From the NCBI RefSeq assembly GCF_023566055.1, contig NZ_JALIQP010000002.1, positions 1 to 64,000 on the forward strand: a stretch of DNA of 64,000 nucleotides, read 5' to 3'. A program made the position numbers and the translations under genes. Position 1 is the first letter of the stretch. Every line of letters starts with the position of its first letter. The DNA comes from Halosolutus amylolyticus. GTDB taxonomy: Archaea > Halobacteriota > Halobacteria > Halobacteriales > Natrialbaceae. Below, in pieces: positions 35,756 to 47,074 of this stretch. The notes under the pieces were generated by a model. It did no database searches and had not been told where the DNA came from. It saw nothing but the letters and a program-made list of their open reading frames with translations.

Positions 35756-36679
35756 ATGTCACTGGTCTTGCCGAGCGAACTCGTCGTCGAGCGGTTCCTG
35801 CCGGCCGTCCGGGGGATGCTCGCCCGTCGGCTCGCCGATCGCGGCCTCACCCAGCAGGAGATCGCCGCCCACCTCGGCGTCACCCAGGCCGCCGTCAGCA
35901 AGTACGTAAGCGGCGATCCCGAGGGAGACGATCGCTTTCGCGAGGATCCCGAGACGGTCGCGACCGTCGATCGGATCGCCGACGGCCTCGCGAGCGGCGA
36001 GCTGGACGGCTACGACGCGCTCGCCGAACTGGTCGCGCTCGTCCGCCAGCTGGAGGATCGGGGTCCGGTCTGCGAACTCCACGAGGAAGAGATGCCCGAA
36101 CTCAGGGGGCTGGGCTGTGACCTCTGCGTCCGCGGCCTCGACCCGGACGTCCGCGCCGAACGCGACGTGCTCGCGTCCGTCCGCACGGCTGCGCGATCGC
36201 TCGCCTCGATCCCCGGCATGGCCGACTACGTCCCGAACGTCGGCACCAACGTCGGCACGTGCCTGCCCGACCCGCGCGACGAGACCGACGTCGCCGCGAT
36301 CCCCGGCCGGATCTACGCGATCGGCGGGCGGATCGAGATTCCCGCCAACCCCGAGTTCGGCGCCTCGAAACACGTCGCCACCGCGATCCTGGCCGCCACC
36401 GACGCCGACCCGGCCGTTCGGGGTGCGACGAACGTCGAAACCGACGACGCGATTCTCGACGCCGCCCGATCGTACGGGATCGAACCCCTCGAGTTCGACG
36501 CCGACTACGACGATCGGGGCGCACACCTTCGATCGCGGTTCGACGATCGGGGCGACGTTCCGCGAGTGGCCTACCACCGCGGGGCGTTTGGTATCGAACC
36601 CGCGACGTACGTCTACGGCGAAACGGCACTCGACGCCGTCGAGACGCTCGGGGACCTGCTCGAGGAAGCTTCCCGGTAG
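35756..36679 (+). CDS. ThiR-like regulator: helix-turn-helix plus ThiN domain
   Basis: 307 residues. The N terminus has a helix-turn-helix (GLTQQEIAAHLGVTQAAVSK, about 27-46). A Cys-containing segment (CELHEEEMPELRGLGCDLC) follows, and the C-terminal 170 residues match the ThiN thiamine-phosphate synthase domain (NPEFGASKHVATAIL and VAYHRGAFGIEPATYVYG). In archaea this fusion is the thiamine-biosynthesis repressor ThiR, where ThiN senses thiamine phosphate. A TATA-like ACTTATG about 28 bases upstream supports leaderless initiation. No thi gene is in the window. Confidence 0.85.
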   Translation: MSLVLPSELVVERFLPAVRGMLARRLADRGLTQQEIAAHLGVTQAAVSKYVSGDPEGDDRFREDPETVATVDRIADGLASGELDGYDALAELVALVRQLEDRGPVCELHEEEMPELRGLGCDLCVRGLDPDVRAERDVLASVRTAARSLASIPGMADYVPNVGTNVGTCLPDPRDETDVAAIPGRIYAIGGRIEIPANPEFGASKHVATAILAATDADPAVRGATNVETDDAILDAARSYGIEPLEFDADYDDRGAHLRSRFDDRGDVPRVAYHRGAFGIEPATYVYGETALDAVETLGDLLEEASR

Positions 36680-36722: not shown

Positions 36723-37346
36723 TCACTCCCGCCCGTAGTAAATCGATTCGTCCTCGGCGGTGGATAGTTCCTGACGGATGACGTCTGCGGACTCGAGTGC
36801 GGCTTCTTTCTCCACGATGATCTCGTCGTCGAGAAGCGCTCGAGCATCCTCGAACCAGTCGAACAGTGCTTCCTCGAACGCCCGTTTGACGTCCGGGAGC
36901 GAGCTATGCGCGTAGACGTTGACTCGACCCCCGCCCCGAACGAGCTTCGAACGGGTTTCGACGAGGCCGGCGTCGTCCATGTGGTGGAGTAGCTGGCGGA
37001 CGTACCCTTCGGAGTAGTCGAAGACGCTGGCGATTTCGGTGACAGTCATCTCCCCCTCCTCCATGAGCGCGATACAGATCGCGATCTCCGTGTCCGAAAT
37101 TCCGAATACGTGCGCGAGCAGCGTCGGCAGGTCGGGTGATTCGGTCGGTCGCTGTCGCTCGACGGGGACCATGGACGATCCGCAACACTGCATCGGCTCG
37201 GCCCCGAACCCGACGCTCTCACATCGTTCACAGGCGTACGCGGTGAACGTCGCCGTTCCATCGGAGTTCGTGGTGGTATCCGACGTTCCGGCGCGCGCCC
37301 GATCGACCGGTTCCTCTTCTACCACGCTCTCGTCCGTACTTGCCAT
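36723..37346 (-). CDS. Zinc-ribbon plus winged-helix (TrmB-like) regulator
   Basis: 207 residues from the ATG at 37346; the codon before it is GTG. After a variable acidic start there is a small zinc ribbon (YACERCESVGFGAEPMQCC, about 38-56) and then a winged helix (TEIAICIALMEEGEMTVTEI and FDYSEGYVRQLLHHMDDAGL, about 85-145), ending in a helical tail rich in Glu. The helix-turn-helix resembles TrmB-type regulators. It is divergent from the CuA/propeller operon across a 369-base AT-rich gap, so it is the likely local regulator of that operon, perhaps sensing redox or copper; that is inference. Confidence 0.78.
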   Translation of the reverse strand: MASTDESVVEEEPVDRARAGTSDTTTNSDGTATFTAYACERCESVGFGAEPMQCCGSSMVPVERQRPTESPDLPTLLAHVFGISDTEIAICIALMEEGEMTVTEIASVFDYSEGYVRQLLHHMDDAGLVETRSKLVRGGGRVNVYAHSSLPDVKRAFEEALFDWFEDARALLDDEIIVEKEAALESADVIRQELSTAEDESIYYGRE

Positions 37347-37715
37347 CACACCTGCACTAGCGGACGCGCCGCGGTAGGGGTGTCTGCGTATTATTCAGGC
37401 ATTCAAGTACCCGGTGGCGAGAGCGATTGGATCGAGACGACGCTCCACGGTCCGGCACCACGGGAGCGAGCGGCCGATCGACCGCGCAGATATCGCATAT
37501 TGAAACACACATGAATCATGCCCTACAGAATTAGTTATATAGTGGGCTATTTGAAACGCATAAGTATTTCGCGTCCAAAGGTAACCGATCTCCGGACGGT
37601 ACGGCATTGATATAGAGCTATCAGCCAGCGTATATAATTCGGGGGGCTTCTCCTTCGGTGTCGGGATTCAGAGCAACCGCCTTCCACTACCCCGGCCGAT
37701 ATTCGACTGCACAGC
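37347..37715. promoter_or_regulatory. AT-rich divergent control region between zinc-ribbon regulator and CuA operon
   Basis: 369 bases with no gene. It is clearly more AT-rich than its flanks and holds several TATA-like sequences, including TTATATA at about 37535-37541 and GTATATAA at about 37629-37637. A partial repeat (ATATTGAAAC, ATTTGAAACG) occurs at about 37498 and 37549. The expected promoters for both genes and binding sites for the regulator lie here, but I cannot define a single operator. Confidence 0.45.
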
Positions 37716-38213
37716 ATGAAAGTACGTCGTCGAAAATTGTTGCTGATCTGTGCAGGGACGGTCCCTGCCACAGCCGGGTGTATGGGCGATGGTGAAAGTG
37801 ATACCGGGGACGGCGAAGACACCGAATCGGATAACTCCCCAACGGGGGACGATAGCGAGTCAGACGGATCGAGTGATAGCGACTCCGACGTCGATCCGGA
37901 CGACGTCGACAGGACCATCGAAGTCGAAGGGTGGTCCTTTGGCTGGGATCCGAGCGAGATCGAAGTCGCACGCGGCGAGACGATCGAACTCGTCGTTTCG
38001 GTCGAAGATGACGGTATCGGCGACGGGCATGGGCTGGCGATTCCTGCCTTCGACGTCGGCATCGCGCCGATTTACCCGGACCAGTCGGAGTCGGCAGTCT
38101 TCGTCGCCGACGAGGTGGGCGAGTTCCAGATGCTGTGCTCGGTTCAGTGCAGCCAACCTGGGGCAGGTACCGGACACGAACAGATGATCGGTTCGTTTAT
38201 AGTAACTGAATGA
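37716..38213 (+). CDS. CuA-type cupredoxin lipoprotein
   Basis: 165 residues. The N terminus KVRRRKLLLICAG and the ATAGC lipobox (Cys 22) mark an exported lipoprotein; an Asp/Ser/Glu-rich linker of about 45 residues follows. The remaining 100 residues are a single cupredoxin domain like cytochrome oxidase subunit II or the NosZ C-terminal domain. Candidate CuA ligands are His 105 in GDGHGLAIPAF, Cys 141 and Cys 145 in CSVQC, His 154 and Met 157 in GHEQM. Standard CuA spacing is C-x3-C-x3-H-x2-M; here eight residues separate the second Cys from His, so the loop is five longer. No membrane helices of a true oxidase subunit. Coupled by ATGA overlap to the beta-propeller gene, its presumed electron partner. 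Confidence 0.82.
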   Translation: MKVRRRKLLLICAGTVPATAGCMGDGESDTGDGEDTESDNSPTGDDSESDGSSDSDSDVDPDDVDRTIEVEGWSFGWDPSEIEVARGETIELVVSVEDDGIGDGHGLAIPAFDVGIAPIYPDQSESAVFVADEVGEFQMLCSVQCSQPGAGTGHEQMIGSFIVTE

Positions 38214-39643
38214 CAATGACTAACAGAACAGACGGCGTTTCGAGACGGAAGTTCATCCTGGCCACCGGTGCAGTGTCGGTTGCTGGGCTGGCAGGGTGTA
38301 GTGAAACCGAAGAACAGGACGCCGCTATCCAGAAGGTCGAAGCCTCCGATCCCGAGACCGACGAGTCGGTCGTCGATCCGGACGGGTGGGCGACGAAGTA
38401 TTCGGAGCGACAGCAAGTTCACCTGACGGACGAACTGGATTCGTCGGGCGATCCCGCCTGGGACCAGTCGGAACACCCGCACGTGTACGTGACGTCGAAC
38501 GGCCCCGGGTACTCGGGACAGCTGTCCAGCGTAGATCTTCCCGGGATTTCGATCGTCGACGCCGATACCCACGAGGAAGTCGTCAGCAAGCAGTTCGACC
38601 TGGGGATCGACGAACCGTTCGAGCCACACGGATGTGCCGTCTCCCCCGACGGTAAGTGGATCTATTCCCTCACCGGTGGGGGCGGTTTCAGCACTGGGAC
38701 CGGTCGATTGATGATCGTCAACGCGGAGACGCTGAAGATCGACAAGATCCTGACGACGGCCGGGATGCCACACCACGTCAAGACGTTCGAACTGTACGAC
38801 GGGAGGCCTGTCGTCCTCGCGTATACGTTCAACTGGTACAACGCCGAGCCGATGCGGGAGTCGACGACCGGCATGATCGTCATGGATCCCGCCGACGATC
38901 ACCGCGTCATCGGCGGCATCGACGGGGAAATGCTCCAGGAACACCCCTATCTCGCGTTCCCACACCCCGACGGTCGGCACCTGTTGATCAGTTGCCCGGA
39001 TGGGAAACACGAGCACGTCGACGGACTGTGGGCCGTCGTCGAGATGGAAAACTGGACCGCCGTCGACTTCTTCCCCGGCGGCCTCGGTCCGATCTACGGC
39101 GCTTTCACCGTCGACGGCCGACACGCATACCTCGGTGCCAGTTACGAGGATACCGTCTTCAAGTACGACGCCGCGGCCAACGAAGTGGTCGACGAGTCCA
39201 ACAGCGGTACGTTCGGCCTCTATGGCGTCACGCTCAGCCCGGACGAGAATTCGTTGTACACGGTTGGCAAGGGCGAAGGTTCCCACAACGTCGGCAAAAC
39301 CCTCGGAAAGGTCGACACGACTTCGATGAACGCCGTGGACGAGTTCGACTACGGCGTGACCCGCGGTGACCACGCGCTGGTCAACCCATTCCAGCCAAGC
39401 GAACTGTGGATCAGCGGGAACGCCAGCTTCAACGACGTCGTCTGGGACATGGAAACCGACCAGCGCGTCGAGAACATCGAGAAGTCCGGCAGTTCCCACA
39501 ACGGTGCGTTCGTCGACTACGAAACGGACGACGAGTGGAAGGTCGTATTCGACCAGGCGGGGTGGCACGGCTGGGCTCGTGACGAACAGATGGACCGCGT
39601 CGGAGCCGACGAAGTCGTCGAGTGGGGCAGCGAAGACGTCTAA
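38210..39643 (+). CDS. Histidine-rich beta-propeller Tat lipoprotein (NosZ/cd1-like fold)
   Basis: 477 residues; a second ATG at 38216 is possible. SRRKFILATGAVSVAGLAGC is a Tat lipoprotein signal (Cys 30). The rest is built of repeated beta-propeller units with SPDGKWIYSL, HPDGRHLLIS, VDGRHAYLGA and SPDENSLYTV. His residues recur in the loops of successive blades: EPHG (140), MPHH (188-189), HPYLAFPH (245-252), GSHN (359), GDHA (388), SSHN (430) and WHGW (453). This is the type of pattern that binds copper in nitrous oxide reductase or heme in cd1-type propellers. No cytochrome c motif CxxCH is present. The catalytic metal and reaction are unknown. Middle of a four-gene operon. Confidence 0.78.
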   Translation: MTMTNRTDGVSRRKFILATGAVSVAGLAGCSETEEQDAAIQKVEASDPETDESVVDPDGWATKYSERQQVHLTDELDSSGDPAWDQSEHPHVYVTSNGPGYSGQLSSVDLPGISIVDADTHEEVVSKQFDLGIDEPFEPHGCAVSPDGKWIYSLTGGGGFSTGTGRLMIVNAETLKIDKILTTAGMPHHVKTFELYDGRPVVLAYTFNWYNAEPMRESTTGMIVMDPADDHRVIGGIDGEMLQEHPYLAFPHPDGRHLLISCPDGKHEHVDGLWAVVEMENWTAVDFFPGGLGPIYGAFTVDGRHAYLGASYEDTVFKYDAAANEVVDESNSGTFGLYGVTLSPDENSLYTVGKGEGSHNVGKTLGKVDTTSMNAVDEFDYGVTRGDHALVNPFQPSELWISGNASFNDVVWDMETDQRVENIEKSGSSHNGAFVDYETDDEWKVVFDQAGWHGWARDEQMDRVGADEVVEWGSEDV

Positions 39644-39670
39644 GTCACCCTCGGCCAGCTACGCCAACAC

Positions 39671-40279
39671 ATGACCCCCATTACCCGCCCGATCGATCGG
39701 GCACAACTGCTGAAAGCGGTTGGAACTCTCGTCCTCGCCGTAGCGATCAGCTTCTCCTGGCTCAGCGTCGGGTACGTCCTCGACGGACCGCCCGATCTCG
39801 AGCGGGACGAAGACGCGATCCAAGACGCGCTCACGCGAACGAGCGACGGAGACATCGAGGTCACCGCCGTGTGGGCGGTAGAGGAGTACTTCGCCGTTCA
39901 GGACGTCGAACCGGCGGACATCGGAGTCGATCCGGAGACGCACCACGTCTTCGTGATCTACCTCGACACGCACACGAAAGAACTCCCGTCGGTCGACTGG
40001 ACCGAGCAGGCCGTGTTACGTGTCGACGGGGAGGAGTACCGGCCGATCGACGGGGAGCGACTCTCGGGCGGGTACCACCACTCTACGGAAACCGTCTCGT
40101 TTCCGAAAGAGCGCGGCGGGGATCAGGTGATTCCGGACGACGCCGCGGAGGTTTCCGTCCAGATCCGGGAGGATGCACTACGCGAGAGTCGGGATCGCGA
40201 GCTCTCGTGGTCGAATCCGCCGCTGGAACGAGAAAGCGCCGAAGACGAAGCGAACGAAAATAACGAGGTGAAACCATGA
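39671..40279 (+). CDS. Membrane-anchored protein of the CuA/propeller operon
   Basis: 202 residues. One N-terminal membrane helix (about 13-37, LLKAVGTLVLAVAISFSWLS) is followed by an extracytoplasmic domain of about 165 residues with THHVFVIYLDTHTKE and GGYHHSTETVSFPKE. It has several His residues but no Cys. I do not recognise the family. It begins 27 bases after the propeller gene and overlaps the CcdA-like gene by ATGA, so it belongs to the same transcript and is probably an assembly or electron-transfer partner. Confidence 0.7.
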   Translation: MTPITRPIDRAQLLKAVGTLVLAVAISFSWLSVGYVLDGPPDLERDEDAIQDALTRTSDGDIEVTAVWAVEEYFAVQDVEPADIGVDPETHHVFVIYLDTHTKELPSVDWTEQAVLRVDGEEYRPIDGERLSGGYHHSTETVSFPKERGGDQVIPDDAAEVSVQIREDALRESRDRELSWSNPPLERESAEDEANENNEVKP

Positions 40280-41034
40280 TCGACTTCCTATCGCTGGTGG
40301 CGGTCGCGCTGGGCCTGCTCGCAGTAACGATGACCCCCTGTCTGATCCAGTTGGTCTTCGTATATTTCGCGGCAGTCTCCGGCGTCTCCGTCGCCGAGGC
40401 AAACCGCGGTGCGTTGACCGAGAGCAAGTTACGGGCCCATCGTCTCACCGTCATCAAGTTGACGCTGGCATTCGTCGTCGGCTTCACGATCGTGTTCACG
40501 ACCGCGGGTGGACTGGTCGGACTGTACGGAGAGGCGGTTCAGGACTTCCCGCTGTGGGGTGCTGACTCCACCCTCGGCGAACGGATCTTCGGCGTGGGAT
40601 TCGTCATCCTGGGGCTCTGGATGGCAAACGTCTCCCGGGCTCCGGTCGCGTGCAAGATCCCATTCCCGTCGTTCGACCGCGACCCGCAGAACACGAGCGT
40701 TCTGGGGATGTTCTCGATCGGGTTCCTGTACATGTTCGGCTGCGCGACGTGCTTCAGCGGCGCGATCTTCGCCGGCCTTCTCGCCGTGCTCGGTACGACG
40801 GCCGCACCCCTCGAGGGTGCGCTCGTCATGTTGCTATTTAGCCTGGGCATCGGCGTTCCGTTGTTGGTCGCTGCGACGCTGCTGACGGACGTCTTCCCCT
40901 ATCTCGCGCGCTTCCAGCGTGTCGGTCGGATCGTCTCCCTGGTCGCCAGCCTCTTCATCGTCGGAATGGGGATCGTGGCGATATCGGGGAACTTCCACGT
41001 GCTCTCGGATCTGATCGCGACCGTCCTGCTCTGA
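40276..41034 (+). CDS. CcdA/DsbD-like integral membrane protein
   Basis: 252 residues, about six membrane helices. Paired cysteines in membrane-helix positions resemble CcdA/DsbD: MTPC in the first helix (Cys 22) and FGCATCFSG (Cys 156 and 159) in a later one. An additional Cys lies in PVACKIPF (126). CcdA proteins carry reducing equivalents across the membrane to keep extracytoplasmic thiols reduced, needed for CuA or heme insertion. Last gene of the operon with the CuA lipoprotein, which suggests maturation of the CuA Cys pair. Confidence 0.78.
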   Translation: MIDFLSLVAVALGLLAVTMTPCLIQLVFVYFAAVSGVSVAEANRGALTESKLRAHRLTVIKLTLAFVVGFTIVFTTAGGLVGLYGEAVQDFPLWGADSTLGERIFGVGFVILGLWMANVSRAPVACKIPFPSFDRDPQNTSVLGMFSIGFLYMFGCATCFSGAIFAGLLAVLGTTAAPLEGALVMLLFSLGIGVPLLVAATLLTDVFPYLARFQRVGRIVSLVASLFIVGMGIVAISGNFHVLSDLIATVLL

Positions 41035-42881: not shown

Positions 42882-45800
42882 TTACAGACAATTCTCCTCG
42901 GGTTCGGGATCGTCTTCACCGAACTCGGGCCCAGTCTCGTTCCAGAGCGGTGAACACATTTCTCCTGGAGCGCCAGCCATCGTGTTATCGCCGACACCGG
43001 GAGCACCCTGTGGCAGGAACTGCGGCGCGGGCACGACGACGAGGATCGTCTGGTTGGTCTCGTACGTGATCGGATCGGTCGATCCCAGCTGGACCTCGTC
43101 CCCGTCGGGGGTCTCCAGCATGACGTCTTTGTCCTCGCGGACGTACGTCGTCGAGTCGGTCACCGACGGATCGCTGCTGGTCGCCTCTACCTCGAAGCGG
43201 GCGTACTCGCCCTCGACATCGATGTGCCAGACGTCGACCTGCAGGTAGAACAGCGGCGGCCACGGGATCAATGGGAAGCCCGGGAGATTGACTTCGTTCT
43301 CGTAGGCGGCACCCATCGGTGCGAAGTCCACGTCCTCGTCGATATCTAGCGGACCATCGCCCTCGGCCCGAACCGCAGGTACCTCGGTCTGGTTGACCGC
43401 AACCTGTGACGAGTGGTAAGTCGGCGAGCCATCGACATCGATGTGGACGTCGTTCAGTACCTCCGGCGTGTCGACTTCGGCACCGCCTTCGTCCTGCAGC
43501 ATCTCCTCGCCAGATCCAAGCATCTCGTCCAGTAAGTCCATCGGACCGCCGATAATCTCGTTTGCCGAATCCAAAAACTCACCAAGGAGACTATCTATTA
43601 GATTTCCACCGCCCGTAGTCACGTTTTCGTGATGAGTCGCCAGTTCATCGATATACTTATATATATTATCGAAGTACAGTTGTCGAGCCTCCATCTTGGC
43701 GGCGCCCGGGGCGTTGTCAAAGTCATCGCTTTCGTTCACGTACTCGTCTTCCATCTCTTTGACATTATCGGACATCTCGCGTATTGGGCTCTCGTCGGCC
43801 GTCAGCATCTCAATGACTTCGGCCTCGACCGGTTCGATCTCTGTCACGGTCTCGTTATGAACTTCGATTAGATCCTCCCAGACGATATAGCTGTGAAGAC
43901 TCCCGTCGCTCCGGGGCGATAACTGGATCTCTTCGTCGAAGTTACGATCGTAATTGATCGCGTCTTCGAAGTCGCTTACCGATTCGACATCGGCCGCTCT
44001 CGGCCGGATCCAGCTTTCGAATTCCGAATCGCTGTCGAAGTCACGCCCGAAGTACACTTCAGTTACCTCGTCAGAAGCGTCTTCCCAGTTGGTCGGGCTT
44101 CCCACGTATGGATCCGGAGAGCCACCCCGGTCGAGAACGTGTTCGACGCTGCTTGGATTGATTTCCAGATCAGGTGCGAACTCTCCATCCAGTTCGAATG
44201 CCGTCGTGTAATTCGTATTCCTTGACTCGTACTTGACGACGTCCGGTGATGAGTTCGTATTCGTGTTGTTCCACCTCCTCTTCGTCGTATACCGCATCTC
44301 TACCTCGATTTCGACCGAAACGAGCGATCGATCGAGACTTGAATCGCCGTCATCAGCGGTCGTCTTGTCGATACTGGCATCTACACGTTCCCGCCACGTG
44401 TAGTACTCCGGATCCATTTCGGTCAAATTGTCGACGTCGTACTCATCCGGATCGAGGTAGGGTGTCGGTGGATGGGTGCCGCCATCACTACTCGGATAGC
44501 TGTGGACGCTTCCGAGTTTCCCGTTTACCGTATACACATCGTCAATAGCGGTATCTGTATTGTCCATATTAACGGCTTCTTCCCGTAGAGTTTCGAGGGA
44601 ATCTAGCAAATTGGACAGTTCGTCAATTTTGTCGTCTAGATCACCAATATCAGTTCGATCGTTTTCGGCGTCATCGTAATAGTCCTCGAGGTACTCTTCG
44701 TTAAATCGCTCCGTCTCATTTAGCTCCTCCCTCATTTCCCTCTCGAGGCCATCCTGATCGAGACTCGTTTCCATTTCGTACATGGACATATCCGCAAACG
44801 GATGCCCCTGGATCGTCCCGTTCTTGTCGATATTTCCGAGCATTCCCGTGATGATCTCCTCGATCGTGGGCATCTCCGGTAACTCGCCGTCCGGAGAGAG
44901 AATGCCTTCTGCACAGAGGTCCTCGACGCTACTGACGTTCTCGTCAGGATGGAGATCGTCTGCAATCGAGTCGAAATCGTACTTGTCACCCACGTCGAAC
45001 GCGCTGTCCGAGAGATCGTAGGCCATACACAGGAACGGCCCCGCCATCACGCGGTTCCCGTAATCGTCCTGCGTGCCGAAGACCTCCTGCTGGGCCGTAA
45101 ATCGCGCGTCGTTGGCCATGACCTCGGTGTGATCGTTCGGCGTGACGTTGTCGAATGCCCGATCTTCGACGTCACCCAGCAACCGATCGTAGTAGGCTTT
45201 CCCCCAGACGAGCGGCCACATGCGTTTGGCGAGGTCGTAACCGTAGCCCTCGCGATCCTGCACGCTCTCGATCATCCCCTTGTTCAGGTGGTCCTCGTAC
45301 TCGTCGACGCGATCGTGAAGTTCCATCATGGTCGTCCCCACAGCCACGGTGACATCGCGCGTCGTCGACGTCTCGACCTCGCCGTCCTCGTCGCGAACGG
45401 TGAACTCGATATCCTGGATCGTCACCTCCATCACGCCGTCGTCTTCCTCGAGGTCGACGTATTTGATCGCCGACTCCAGGTCGCTCTCGTCGGACCAGTC
45501 GTCGACCTCGGGCACCGATACCTCGACGGTCCGGCCCTGGCCGACGTCCTGTTCGCGCCCGTCGAGGGCCGCGGTGACCTCGGCGAGGATCGTGAGTTTC
45601 GTCTGGTCCTCGAACGCCTCGTCGTCGTCGATCGCGCCGTTCACGTCGCCATCGACGGTCGTCAGCGGCGATCGAACGACCTTGTCGGTCGCTCGGACGG
45701 TCGCGTGGCGGATCTGGCTGGTCGCGTACGCCTCGCCGCGATCGACGGCCATCTCGGTGCCGAGGTCGATCTCCGGGTCGCTTCTCGTCTCGAGCGTGGC

Positions 45801-45908
45801 GACGATCAACACGCTGCTGACGAGCAGCAAGACGCCGATAATTGCGAACGGGATCCGTGCTCTGTCGTCGTCTGCGATCGAAATCGTACGGGGTGAATTG
45901 CGTGTCAT
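42882..45908 (-). CDS. Large pilin-operon surface protein (DUF7286-like)
   Basis: 1008 residues from the ATG at 45908, overlapping the upstream stop (ATGA). The N terminus has a pilin-like hydrophobic helix (RIPFAIIGVLLLVSSVLIVA) after a short basic segment. The rest is a very acidic extracellular protein with long helical or coiled-coil stretches (LDDKIDELSNLLDSLETLRE and similar), a Gly/Met-rich region and a Pro-rich C terminus (LPGFPLIPWPPLFYLQVDVW). I associate it with DUF7286, one of several haloarchaeal families that accompany type IV pilus-like genes; this is from memory. Last gene of a four-gene operon of such proteins. Confidence 0.7.
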   Translation of the reverse strand: MTRNSPRTISIADDDRARIPFAIIGVLLLVSSVLIVATLETRSDPEIDLGTEMAVDRGEAYATSQIRHATVRATDKVVRSPLTTVDGDVNGAIDDDEAFEDQTKLTILAEVTAALDGREQDVGQGRTVEVSVPEVDDWSDESDLESAIKYVDLEEDDGVMEVTIQDIEFTVRDEDGEVETSTTRDVTVAVGTTMMELHDRVDEYEDHLNKGMIESVQDREGYGYDLAKRMWPLVWGKAYYDRLLGDVEDRAFDNVTPNDHTEVMANDARFTAQQEVFGTQDDYGNRVMAGPFLCMAYDLSDSAFDVGDKYDFDSIADDLHPDENVSSVEDLCAEGILSPDGELPEMPTIEEIITGMLGNIDKNGTIQGHPFADMSMYEMETSLDQDGLEREMREELNETERFNEEYLEDYYDDAENDRTDIGDLDDKIDELSNLLDSLETLREEAVNMDNTDTAIDDVYTVNGKLGSVHSYPSSDGGTHPPTPYLDPDEYDVDNLTEMDPEYYTWRERVDASIDKTTADDGDSSLDRSLVSVEIEVEMRYTTKRRWNNTNTNSSPDVVKYESRNTNYTTAFELDGEFAPDLEINPSSVEHVLDRGGSPDPYVGSPTNWEDASDEVTEVYFGRDFDSDSEFESWIRPRAADVESVSDFEDAINYDRNFDEEIQLSPRSDGSLHSYIVWEDLIEVHNETVTEIEPVEAEVIEMLTADESPIREMSDNVKEMEDEYVNESDDFDNAPGAAKMEARQLYFDNIYKYIDELATHHENVTTGGGNLIDSLLGEFLDSANEIIGGPMDLLDEMLGSGEEMLQDEGGAEVDTPEVLNDVHIDVDGSPTYHSSQVAVNQTEVPAVRAEGDGPLDIDEDVDFAPMGAAYENEVNLPGFPLIPWPPLFYLQVDVWHIDVEGEYARFEVEATSSDPSVTDSTTYVREDKDVMLETPDGDEVQLGSTDPITYETNQTILVVVPAPQFLPQGAPGVGDNTMAGAPGEMCSPLWNETGPEFGEDDPEPEENCL

Positions 45909-47074
45909 TCGTGCCAGGTCTGGACCGTGATCGTTACGTCGTCGTTCGACAGTGCCTCGACGACCGCCTCGGCTCGCTTCCTGTCGCGCTCCTCGCCGTC
46001 GTACTCCGCGTCGATGTCCGCGAACTCGTCCTCGAACGCGCGGGGAATGTCCGCCGCGATCCACGCGGCGAGCGCGTCGGCGTCGGTGACGTCGTACCCG
46101 CCGTCCTGGCCGATGAGGACCTTGTGATTCGCCTCCTCGGCCCGCGCCTCGGATCGGACCAGCGGGGGATGGGTGTCCGGGCTTCGGAACGAGAAGTCAC
46201 CGATGGCGTCGACCGTCGACTGGTAGTGGTACACCTTGAGCTCGCGATCGATCCCCTGGTCCTCGAGTGCGTACTGGGACTCTTCGGGCGGGAAGAGGCC
46301 CTCGACGATCGGTTCGCCGATCACCGTACCCGCGGCGGCGTAGGACTTGTTGTCCGACCCCTTCAGTCCGGGAACGTCCGACGAATCGTCGACCCCCGGC
46401 AGGAAGTCGGCCATCTCGTCGATCCAGTCGTCCCACCAGTCGTCGGCGTCCATCCAGTTCGACTCGAGTTCCTCCCCGTCTACCTCCGGAAAGCCACTGG
46501 AGACCGTCGTCGTCGTACTGGAGACGTCCGCGGTCGGCGGTGGACGCTCGCCGGCGGTCGCCGTCCCGTTGATGGCCGCTCCTTCGTAGGGCTCCCACTC
46601 GGCGACGATGTAGAAGTTCCGTTCGGCACCGAGCAGATTGTGTCGAATCGCCCAGTCGACGGCCTCTTCGTACTCTTCGCCGTAGGCTAACACTGGTTCG
46701 CCACCGATCTGGTGGTTCGCGATCGCGGCGTCGGCCAGCAGGCCGAGCGGTGAGCCGTGATCGGTTCGCGTGTACGTGGTGGCGTCCGTCACGACCGGTT
46801 CGGAGAAGTCGCCCGCGTCACGGACGCCCTCGAGGCTGTACGTGACGGTGATCGTCGATTCGCTCAGCGTCTCCGTCGTGTGAGCGGCCGACTGTGCATC
46901 GTGCTCGTCGGTCGCGACCACCGACGCACCCCCGTCCGTTTCGCGGATCGTGGTATCGTCGCCGGCGTCGTCGAGATACAACCCGACGATCATGACGCTC
47001 GCGGAGACGAGCAGCAGGGCCATGGCCACGTCGACCACGGTGCTGACACCGCGGTCGGAGTCGCGCCCTCGCAT
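45905..47074 (-). CDS. Pilin-like exported protein (DUF7284-like)
   Basis: 389 residues. RGVSTVVDVAMALLLVSASV after a short charged leader resembles the class III signal and helix of archaeal pilins. The extracellular part is acidic, with a Pro/Thr/Ser-rich linker (about 170-185) and no enzymatic motif. It overlaps the following gene by 4 bases and starts 2 bases after the preceding stop, so all are one operon. Probably a structural or accessory component of a surface filament. Confidence 0.7.
   Translation of the reverse strand: MRGRDSDRGVSTVVDVAMALLLVSASVMIVGLYLDDAGDDTTIRETDGGASVVATDEHDAQSAAHTTETLSESTITVTYSLEGVRDAGDFSEPVVTDATTYTRTDHGSPLGLLADAAIANHQIGGEPVLAYGEEYEEAVDWAIRHNLLGAERNFYIVAEWEPYEGAAINGTATAGERPPPTADVSSTTTTVSSGFPEVDGEELESNWMDADDWWDDWIDEMADFLPGVDDSSDVPGLKGSDNKSYAAAGTVIGEPIVEGLFPPEESQYALEDQGIDRELKVYHYQSTVDAIGDFSFRSPDTHPPLVRSEARAEEANHKVLIGQDGGYDVTDADALAAWIAADIPRAFEDEFADIDAEYDGEERDRKRAEAVVEALSNDDVTITVQTWHE

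Follow-up and report, generated by a model that had tools for sequence, protein, structure and literature searches.

A putative copper-dependent propeller oxidoreductase and its proposed CuA-type lipoprotein partner encoded by a four-gene stretch of Halosolutus amylolyticus

Four adjacent genes and their products

Four adjacent genes, here P1 to P4, occupy positions 37716-41034 of the forward strand in a 64,000-nucleotide window of Halosolutus amylolyticus contig NZ_JALIQP010000002.1 (the window being the whole stretch of DNA that was analysed). An earlier note made from the sequence alone had described two ATGA overlaps and one 27-base gap between them and had proposed a split, membrane-tethered metalloredox system, possibly resembling nitrous oxide reductase (NosZ) or representing a new reductase. 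The coordinates of the open reading frames agree with this description (ATGA overlaps at P1/P2 and P3/P4, the 27-nucleotide gap at P2/P3), and separate CuA and propeller parts bear out the split system. Judged by its sequence, P2 is a member of an undescribed family, and analysis of the gene products and their relatives suggests, with a probability that we put at about even, that the genes form part of an island encoding a membrane-tethered extracytoplasmic oxidoreductase of this family, probably copper-dependent.

P1 (37716..38213, +) is a CuA-type cupredoxin lipoprotein (lipobox TAGC22) and the proposed electron carrier. The CuA-like ligand set noticed earlier is complete in an alignment with Thermus CuA: H105, C141, C145, H154 and M157 provide two His, two Cys (as C-x3-C) and one Met. 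The spacing, C-x3-C-x8-H-x2-M, differs from the usual C-x3-C-x3-H-x2-M by a five-residue insert between C145 and H154. P1 matches the CuA domain of Thermus COX2 (E 3e-5) and, through the CuA ends only, models of NosZ and L-NosZ (E 1e-5 to 2e-6), scoring 24 bits against the NosZ models (CuA part only) and 27 bits against L-NosZ. No orthologue was found among 145 Halobacteria.

P2 (38210..39643, +), the proposed catalytic subunit, is a lipoprotein with a twin-arginine translocation (Tat)-type signal (SRRKF) and a lipobox (LAGC30). Its AlphaFold2 model is a confidently predicted propeller of seven blades, with seven innermost strands (predicted local distance difference test (pLDDT) score 88.9; predicted template modelling score 0.91). 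The earlier note had expected a Tat lipoprotein propeller with His in many blades and had asked whether seven of these are invariant; the propeller holds, but only five His are invariant, not the other two, and they occupy four of the seven blades. In an alignment of 40 proteins, H140, H188, H189, H388, H430 and Y338 are invariant, H89 is almost so, H359 is present in 34 of 39, and the other His of P2 are mostly variable; invariant His make up 5 of the 18 in P2, a larger share than the 29 invariant columns of 433 overall would lead one to expect (hypergeometric P 0.004). K354 and E356 are invariant alongside the five His and Y338 across 44 core proteins and six divergent cytochrome-propeller fusions recovered by profile search; these six keep G355 as well and have lost H89, H359 and N360. 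Most of these loci were fetched through the PHG...SPDG motif, so that for them the constancy of P139-H140-G141 and S145-P146-D147-G148 is in part a product of the selection; paralogues found by profile, which were fetched without the motif, likewise keep H140. Assigned by strand order in the model, the invariant His and Tyr would fall where innermost strands begin, and K354 and E356 in a loop between the second and third strands of one blade, on the same face, as in propellers generally the innermost-strand starts and the second-third strand loops share a face.

P3 (39671..40279, +) consists of an N-terminal transmembrane helix and an extracytoplasmic domain modelled as an Ig-like sandwich (pLDDT 82.5), with three invariant His (H101, H136, H137). 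A fold search with it returned nothing stronger than weak, Ig-like hits (3fjv, Z 9.3; DUF4426, Z 8.1; the copper protein CrdA, Z 7.5), which were not used to assign a function. P4 (40276..41034, +) is a CcdA/DsbD_TM-like membrane protein (PF02683, 47.6 bits with a cut-off of 27.1, E 1.7e-12). Four Cys (C22, C126, C156, C159) are invariant in its family (alignment A7). C22 and C159 form the CcdA-type membrane pair, with one Cys in the first helix and one in a later helix as in CcdA and DsbD, so the pairing recognized earlier stands. The additional C126 and C156, which could bind metal, distinguish P4 from CcdA/DsbD, as does the fusion of P4 to the three-His P3 domain in bacteria.

The P2 family and its gene partners in bacteria

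Relatives of P2 were sought in 84,980 species by a pattern-steered scan with an alignment of P2 and artificial scrambled decoys, whose sole purpose was to direct the pattern to the PHG...SPDG motif; the matches were upheld by tblastn with the genuine P2 sequence, and the decoys are in none of the later alignments. Loci numbered after L082 are generic YncE-like propellers and were excluded from the family. About 43 homologues remain, mostly full length, about 30-40% identical to P2 and nearly all from metagenome-assembled bacteria: Woeseiaceae and other Gammaproteobacteria, Rhodobacteraceae, Chloroflexota, Trueperaceae, Acidobacteriota, Actinomycetota and others. A scan of genome contigs with P2 as a single sequence gave no match. 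P2 was found in no other Halobacteria, by sequence or family profile (391 genomes), nor was P4 (292 genomes), and tblastn against plasmids returned generic YncE and CcdA matches only; a weak P3 match inside a CheB gene was judged to be chance. Curated libraries do not include the P2 family, their best models being generic propellers below cut-off, and no published description of the P1-P4 gene group was found in the open-access literature. In a phylogenetic tree P2 sits on a long branch within a fully supported clade of 16, which comprises gammaproteobacterial, Chloroflexota, Trueperaceae and Fraserbacteria proteins.

Bacterial P2 homologues are regularly accompanied by cytochromes: at 29 of the 35 bacterial loci with enough sequence, a haem c motif either follows the propeller immediately or is fused to its C-terminus, and at several loci a cupredoxin-like domain comes after haem c. 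A CuA motif was looked for next to the bacterial P2 homologues, and there was none. Compared with these loci, the CuA protein P1 stands in the bacterial cytochrome slot and seems to replace cytochrome c. In bacteria P3 and P4 are a single fused open reading frame (matching P3 down to 8e-18 and P4 down to 6e-57), sometimes with SCO1; it belongs to the propeller locus in 17 of 35 cases and in other bacteria lies elsewhere in the genome. Gammaproteobacterial clusters also hold a YncE-like propeller and SCO1/SenC. The gene group is conserved, in bacteria with cytochrome c in the place of CuA.

One Rhodobacteraceae genome encodes eight close and seven divergent P2-like proteins and six P3P4 proteins, with LysR regulators beside three of the clusters and a porin beside one, neighbours that suggest substrate-specific catabolism. 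In a control set of 189 Rhodobacteraceae genomes, strong P3P4 matches occur in two and P2 in the same two only (Fisher P 6e-5, nominal as the genomes are related).

Several further arrangements were observed. Divergent proteins of about 600 amino acids in L141-L143 and at L144:989-2821 have an N-terminal haem c fused to a P2-like propeller; in L141, P3P4 and a YncE-like gene precede a tandem array of three such fusions, and genes for LysR and a porin are close by. Cupredoxins with the motif EHHYH/EYHYR recur near P2 homologues, at L055:2885-3634, L057:3505-4116, L064:8596-9204 and L071:9480-10109; the C..H..M end is kept in some and Cys is lost in others, so that their copper binding looks variable. 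A P2 homologue in an actinobacterial metagenome-assembled genome (L077:3753-5287) adjoins a Rieske protein and a three-haem cytochrome c, and one from Chloroflexota (L079:8300-10737) adjoins a 4Fe-4S and NrfD pair.

The presence of SCO1, cupredoxins and a CcdA-like protein around the gene might also be explained if P2 were a metal-binding chaperone or sensor that supplies copper, and P1-P4 a copper-handling system. Propeller metallochaperones do exist: AztD binds zinc on three His in the central pore of an eight-bladed propeller and is encoded in a zinc ATP-binding cassette (ABC) transporter operon (PMC6689063). P2, however, has seven blades, and no ABC gene is among the four genes. That Tyr, Lys and Glu are invariant together with the His points to catalysis and the direct fusion to haem c to electron flow, and a chaperone would not be expected in some 15 copies, with LysR regulators, in one genome; we regard this explanation as distinctly improbable.

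Setting and origin of the island

Divergent from P1 lies a regulator gene (36723..37349, -) encoding a Cys-rich, zinc-ribbon-like N-terminus and a TrmB-type helix-turn-helix domain (PF01978, E 6.9e-8, above cut-off). The left edge of the insertion is marked by a flanking gene for a helix-turn-helix and ThiN-domain regulator (35756-36679, +; ThiN E 1.4e-47), which is common to both congeners compared (85-87% identity). The divergent regulator and P1-P4 are absent from both (n=2), though this left flank is present, and GC content, which is about 0.69-0.71 in the left flank, drops to 0.57-0.63 in the island. Together with the position of P2 in the tree, the absence from two congeners and the drop in GC speak for a laterally acquired island made up of the regulator and P1-P4, and its donor may have been bacterial. 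Control of P1-P4 by the divergent regulator is plausible because the congeners that are without the regulator are also without P1-P4; relatives of the regulator occur in mixed gene contexts that indicate no pathway.

A PQQ_2/BamB-like propeller lipoprotein is encoded 500 nucleotides downstream of P4 (41531-42763, +). Only its N-terminal quarter finds a match, in one congener and near the same flank, and the gene may or may not be part of the island. To the right of the island (42882-47074, -) are two long acidic frames of 1060 and 389 amino acids whose products look membrane-anchored or secreted; the first has a lower GC content, down to about 0.51.

Comparison with known enzymes and proposed function

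To our knowledge, copper-bearing propeller enzymes are few: NosZ, thiocyanate dehydrogenase and, as proposed, methanethiol oxidase. NosZ has the same parts as P1 and P2 together, a CuA domain and a seven-bladed His propeller, which raises the alternative that P1 and P2 form a nitrous oxide reductase, or another terminal reductase, in two pieces. P1 would then pass electrons from the respiratory chain to a copper cluster of P2 that reduces N2O or another oxide of nitrogen, sulfur or halogen. The alignment of the NosZ propeller with the P2 model (Z 27-30), the match of P1 to the CuA ends of NosZ and the location of the L077 and L079 homologues near Rieske or NrfD/Fe-S respiratory genes all accord with this alternative. 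In NosZ, however, propeller and CuA form one chain with the propeller first, whereas here they are two genes in reversed order, the conserved residues differ, and P3-P4 is present in the island; the bacterial partner, moreover, is cytochrome c rather than CuA.

Membership of P2 in NosZ or L-NosZ was rejected because its scores are far below the cut-offs: 11.8 bits against NosZ TIGR04246 (cut-off 625 for TIGR04244 and TIGR04246) and 24 bits against the clade III L-NosZ model NF052460 (cut-off 700). L-NosZ is matched by 17 of the 40 relatives, weakly. The match to NosZ by hhalign is likewise weak (probability 58%), and hhalign of P2 singly against archaeal NosZ gave no match. The five invariant His of P2 compare with seven CuZ His ligands in NosZ, the register of this remote alignment being unsure. 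The position that resembles the GPLH ligand motif of NosZ is Tyr in P2 and Gly or Trp in its relatives, with no conserved His. Pfam identified nothing like the nosDFYL products in the four genes, the rest of the genome not having been scanned for them. A canonical full-length NosZ is encoded elsewhere in the genome (C1:1021017-1021940; a 656-amino-acid frame with DTHH, EPHD and CAFFCSALHLEM motifs), and N2O reduction therefore does not need the island. The scores, the canonical NosZ and the lack of a conserved His at the GPLH-like position argue against the NosZ-like function suggested by the earlier note, and a split reductase of any kind appears unlikely. Of its other suggestion, a new reductase, the novelty of the enzyme is retained; a dehydrogenase is judged likelier than a reductase because of the cytochrome partners and because some copies have LysR regulators and a porin as neighbours.

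P2 is probably a dehydrogenase that works in the manner of thiocyanate dehydrogenase, whose propeller contains three coppers and whose acceptor is a mono-haem cytochrome c (PMC9456337) encoded nearby (PMC9456337, PMC6504805, PMC5328954). Like P2, thiocyanate dehydrogenase (PDB 5F75, 8Q9X) is a Tat-exported seven-bladed propeller, with 321-324 residues aligned; both have His together with Lys and Glu, and the P2 family also has haem c partner genes. Identity is only 13-14%, and in the comparison with 8yu5 (Z 27.7, root-mean-square deviation 2.9, 322 residues, 13% identity) generic propellers score equally high. Compared as residue lists, the active site of thiocyanate dehydrogenase comprises seven His plus K103, E288 and D314 (K103, H135, H136, H206, E288, D314, H381, H437, H482, H528; PMC6504805), and that proposed for P2 five His, Y338, K354 and E356. 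The accessory genes also differ, being copCD or Cus and ABC genes for thiocyanate dehydrogenase and P3-P4 with SCO1 for the P2 family, with a CuA partner in the archaeon. Methanethiol oxidase (SBP56/MtoX), for which a four-His copper site has been proposed, is linked to genes for SCO1/SenC and a MauG haem protein (PMC5739008); MauG was not seen with the P2 family, whose partners are P3-P4 and CuA or cytochrome. SBP56 membership was rejected, there being no Pfam match to it for P2 at E values up to 1 or among the families of the 40 relatives. P2 may work like either enzyme while being filed in neither family.

In a VIA fold ranking, YVTN and lactonase propellers come first for P2 (Z 30-33), closely followed by NosZ (Z 27-30) and thiocyanate dehydrogenase (Z 27-28), which align over more residues (306-324). 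The folds of NirN, lactonase and gluconolactonase are close to the model, and some family members weakly match the Cytochrom_D1 and SMP-30/gluconolactonase models, as might be expected if P2 used another cofactor or chemistry (haem d1-like, Ca2+, lactonase) and its five His were catalytic without copper. These model matches either do not reach the curated cut-offs or are generic, and lactonases need no redox partner; copper is the better fit for a His-His pair and three further His among neighbours of copper type (CuA, cupredoxins, SCO1). Another cofactor or chemistry likewise seems distinctly improbable.

In the copper-dependent oxidoreductase that we favour, the invariant residues of P2 would hold a mono- or multinuclear copper site where the propeller channel opens at one end, and the enzyme would most likely oxidize a small soluble substrate. 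The electrons would go to cytochrome c in the bacterial systems and, in the archaeon, to the CuA lipoprotein P1, and from there to the respiratory chain. P3 with its three His and the CcdA-like P4, joined in some bacteria by SCO1, may load the copper and may maintain the Cys of CuA or of the apocytochrome as reduced thiols, and would in this way serve maturation. Several points weigh against this proposal: non-metal propellers (YVTN, lactonase) match the fold of P2 equally well or better, the convergence of the five His on one site is presumptive, the copper, substrate and activity of P2 are putative, the direction of electron flow is deduced only, SCO1 is present in only part of the clusters, and the P value for the association of P2 with P3P4 in related Rhodobacteraceae genomes is nominal.

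More tentatively, and at somewhat less than an even chance, the family may be a large one of dehydrogenases that are copper propellers, with a site made up of five His, Tyr, Lys and Glu and with maturation by a dedicated P3-P4 module (the three-His domain and the CcdA-like protein with four Cys), distributed over about ten bacterial phyla, reaching some 15 copies in one alphaproteobacterium and able to exchange cytochrome c for CuA. If so, copper enzymology would be broadened by a new copper-propeller family that has an accessory module to itself, and genes of uncultured sediment and groundwater bacteria that are now read as YncE-like propellers would gain a function. The archaeal copy would represent a natural swap of cytochrome c for CuA, in which the CuA lipoprotein as electron partner is directly testable. 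The P2 family is uncharacterised; the case for its being a copper propeller enzyme is strong and can be tested, and the archaeal version would use a different electron carrier.

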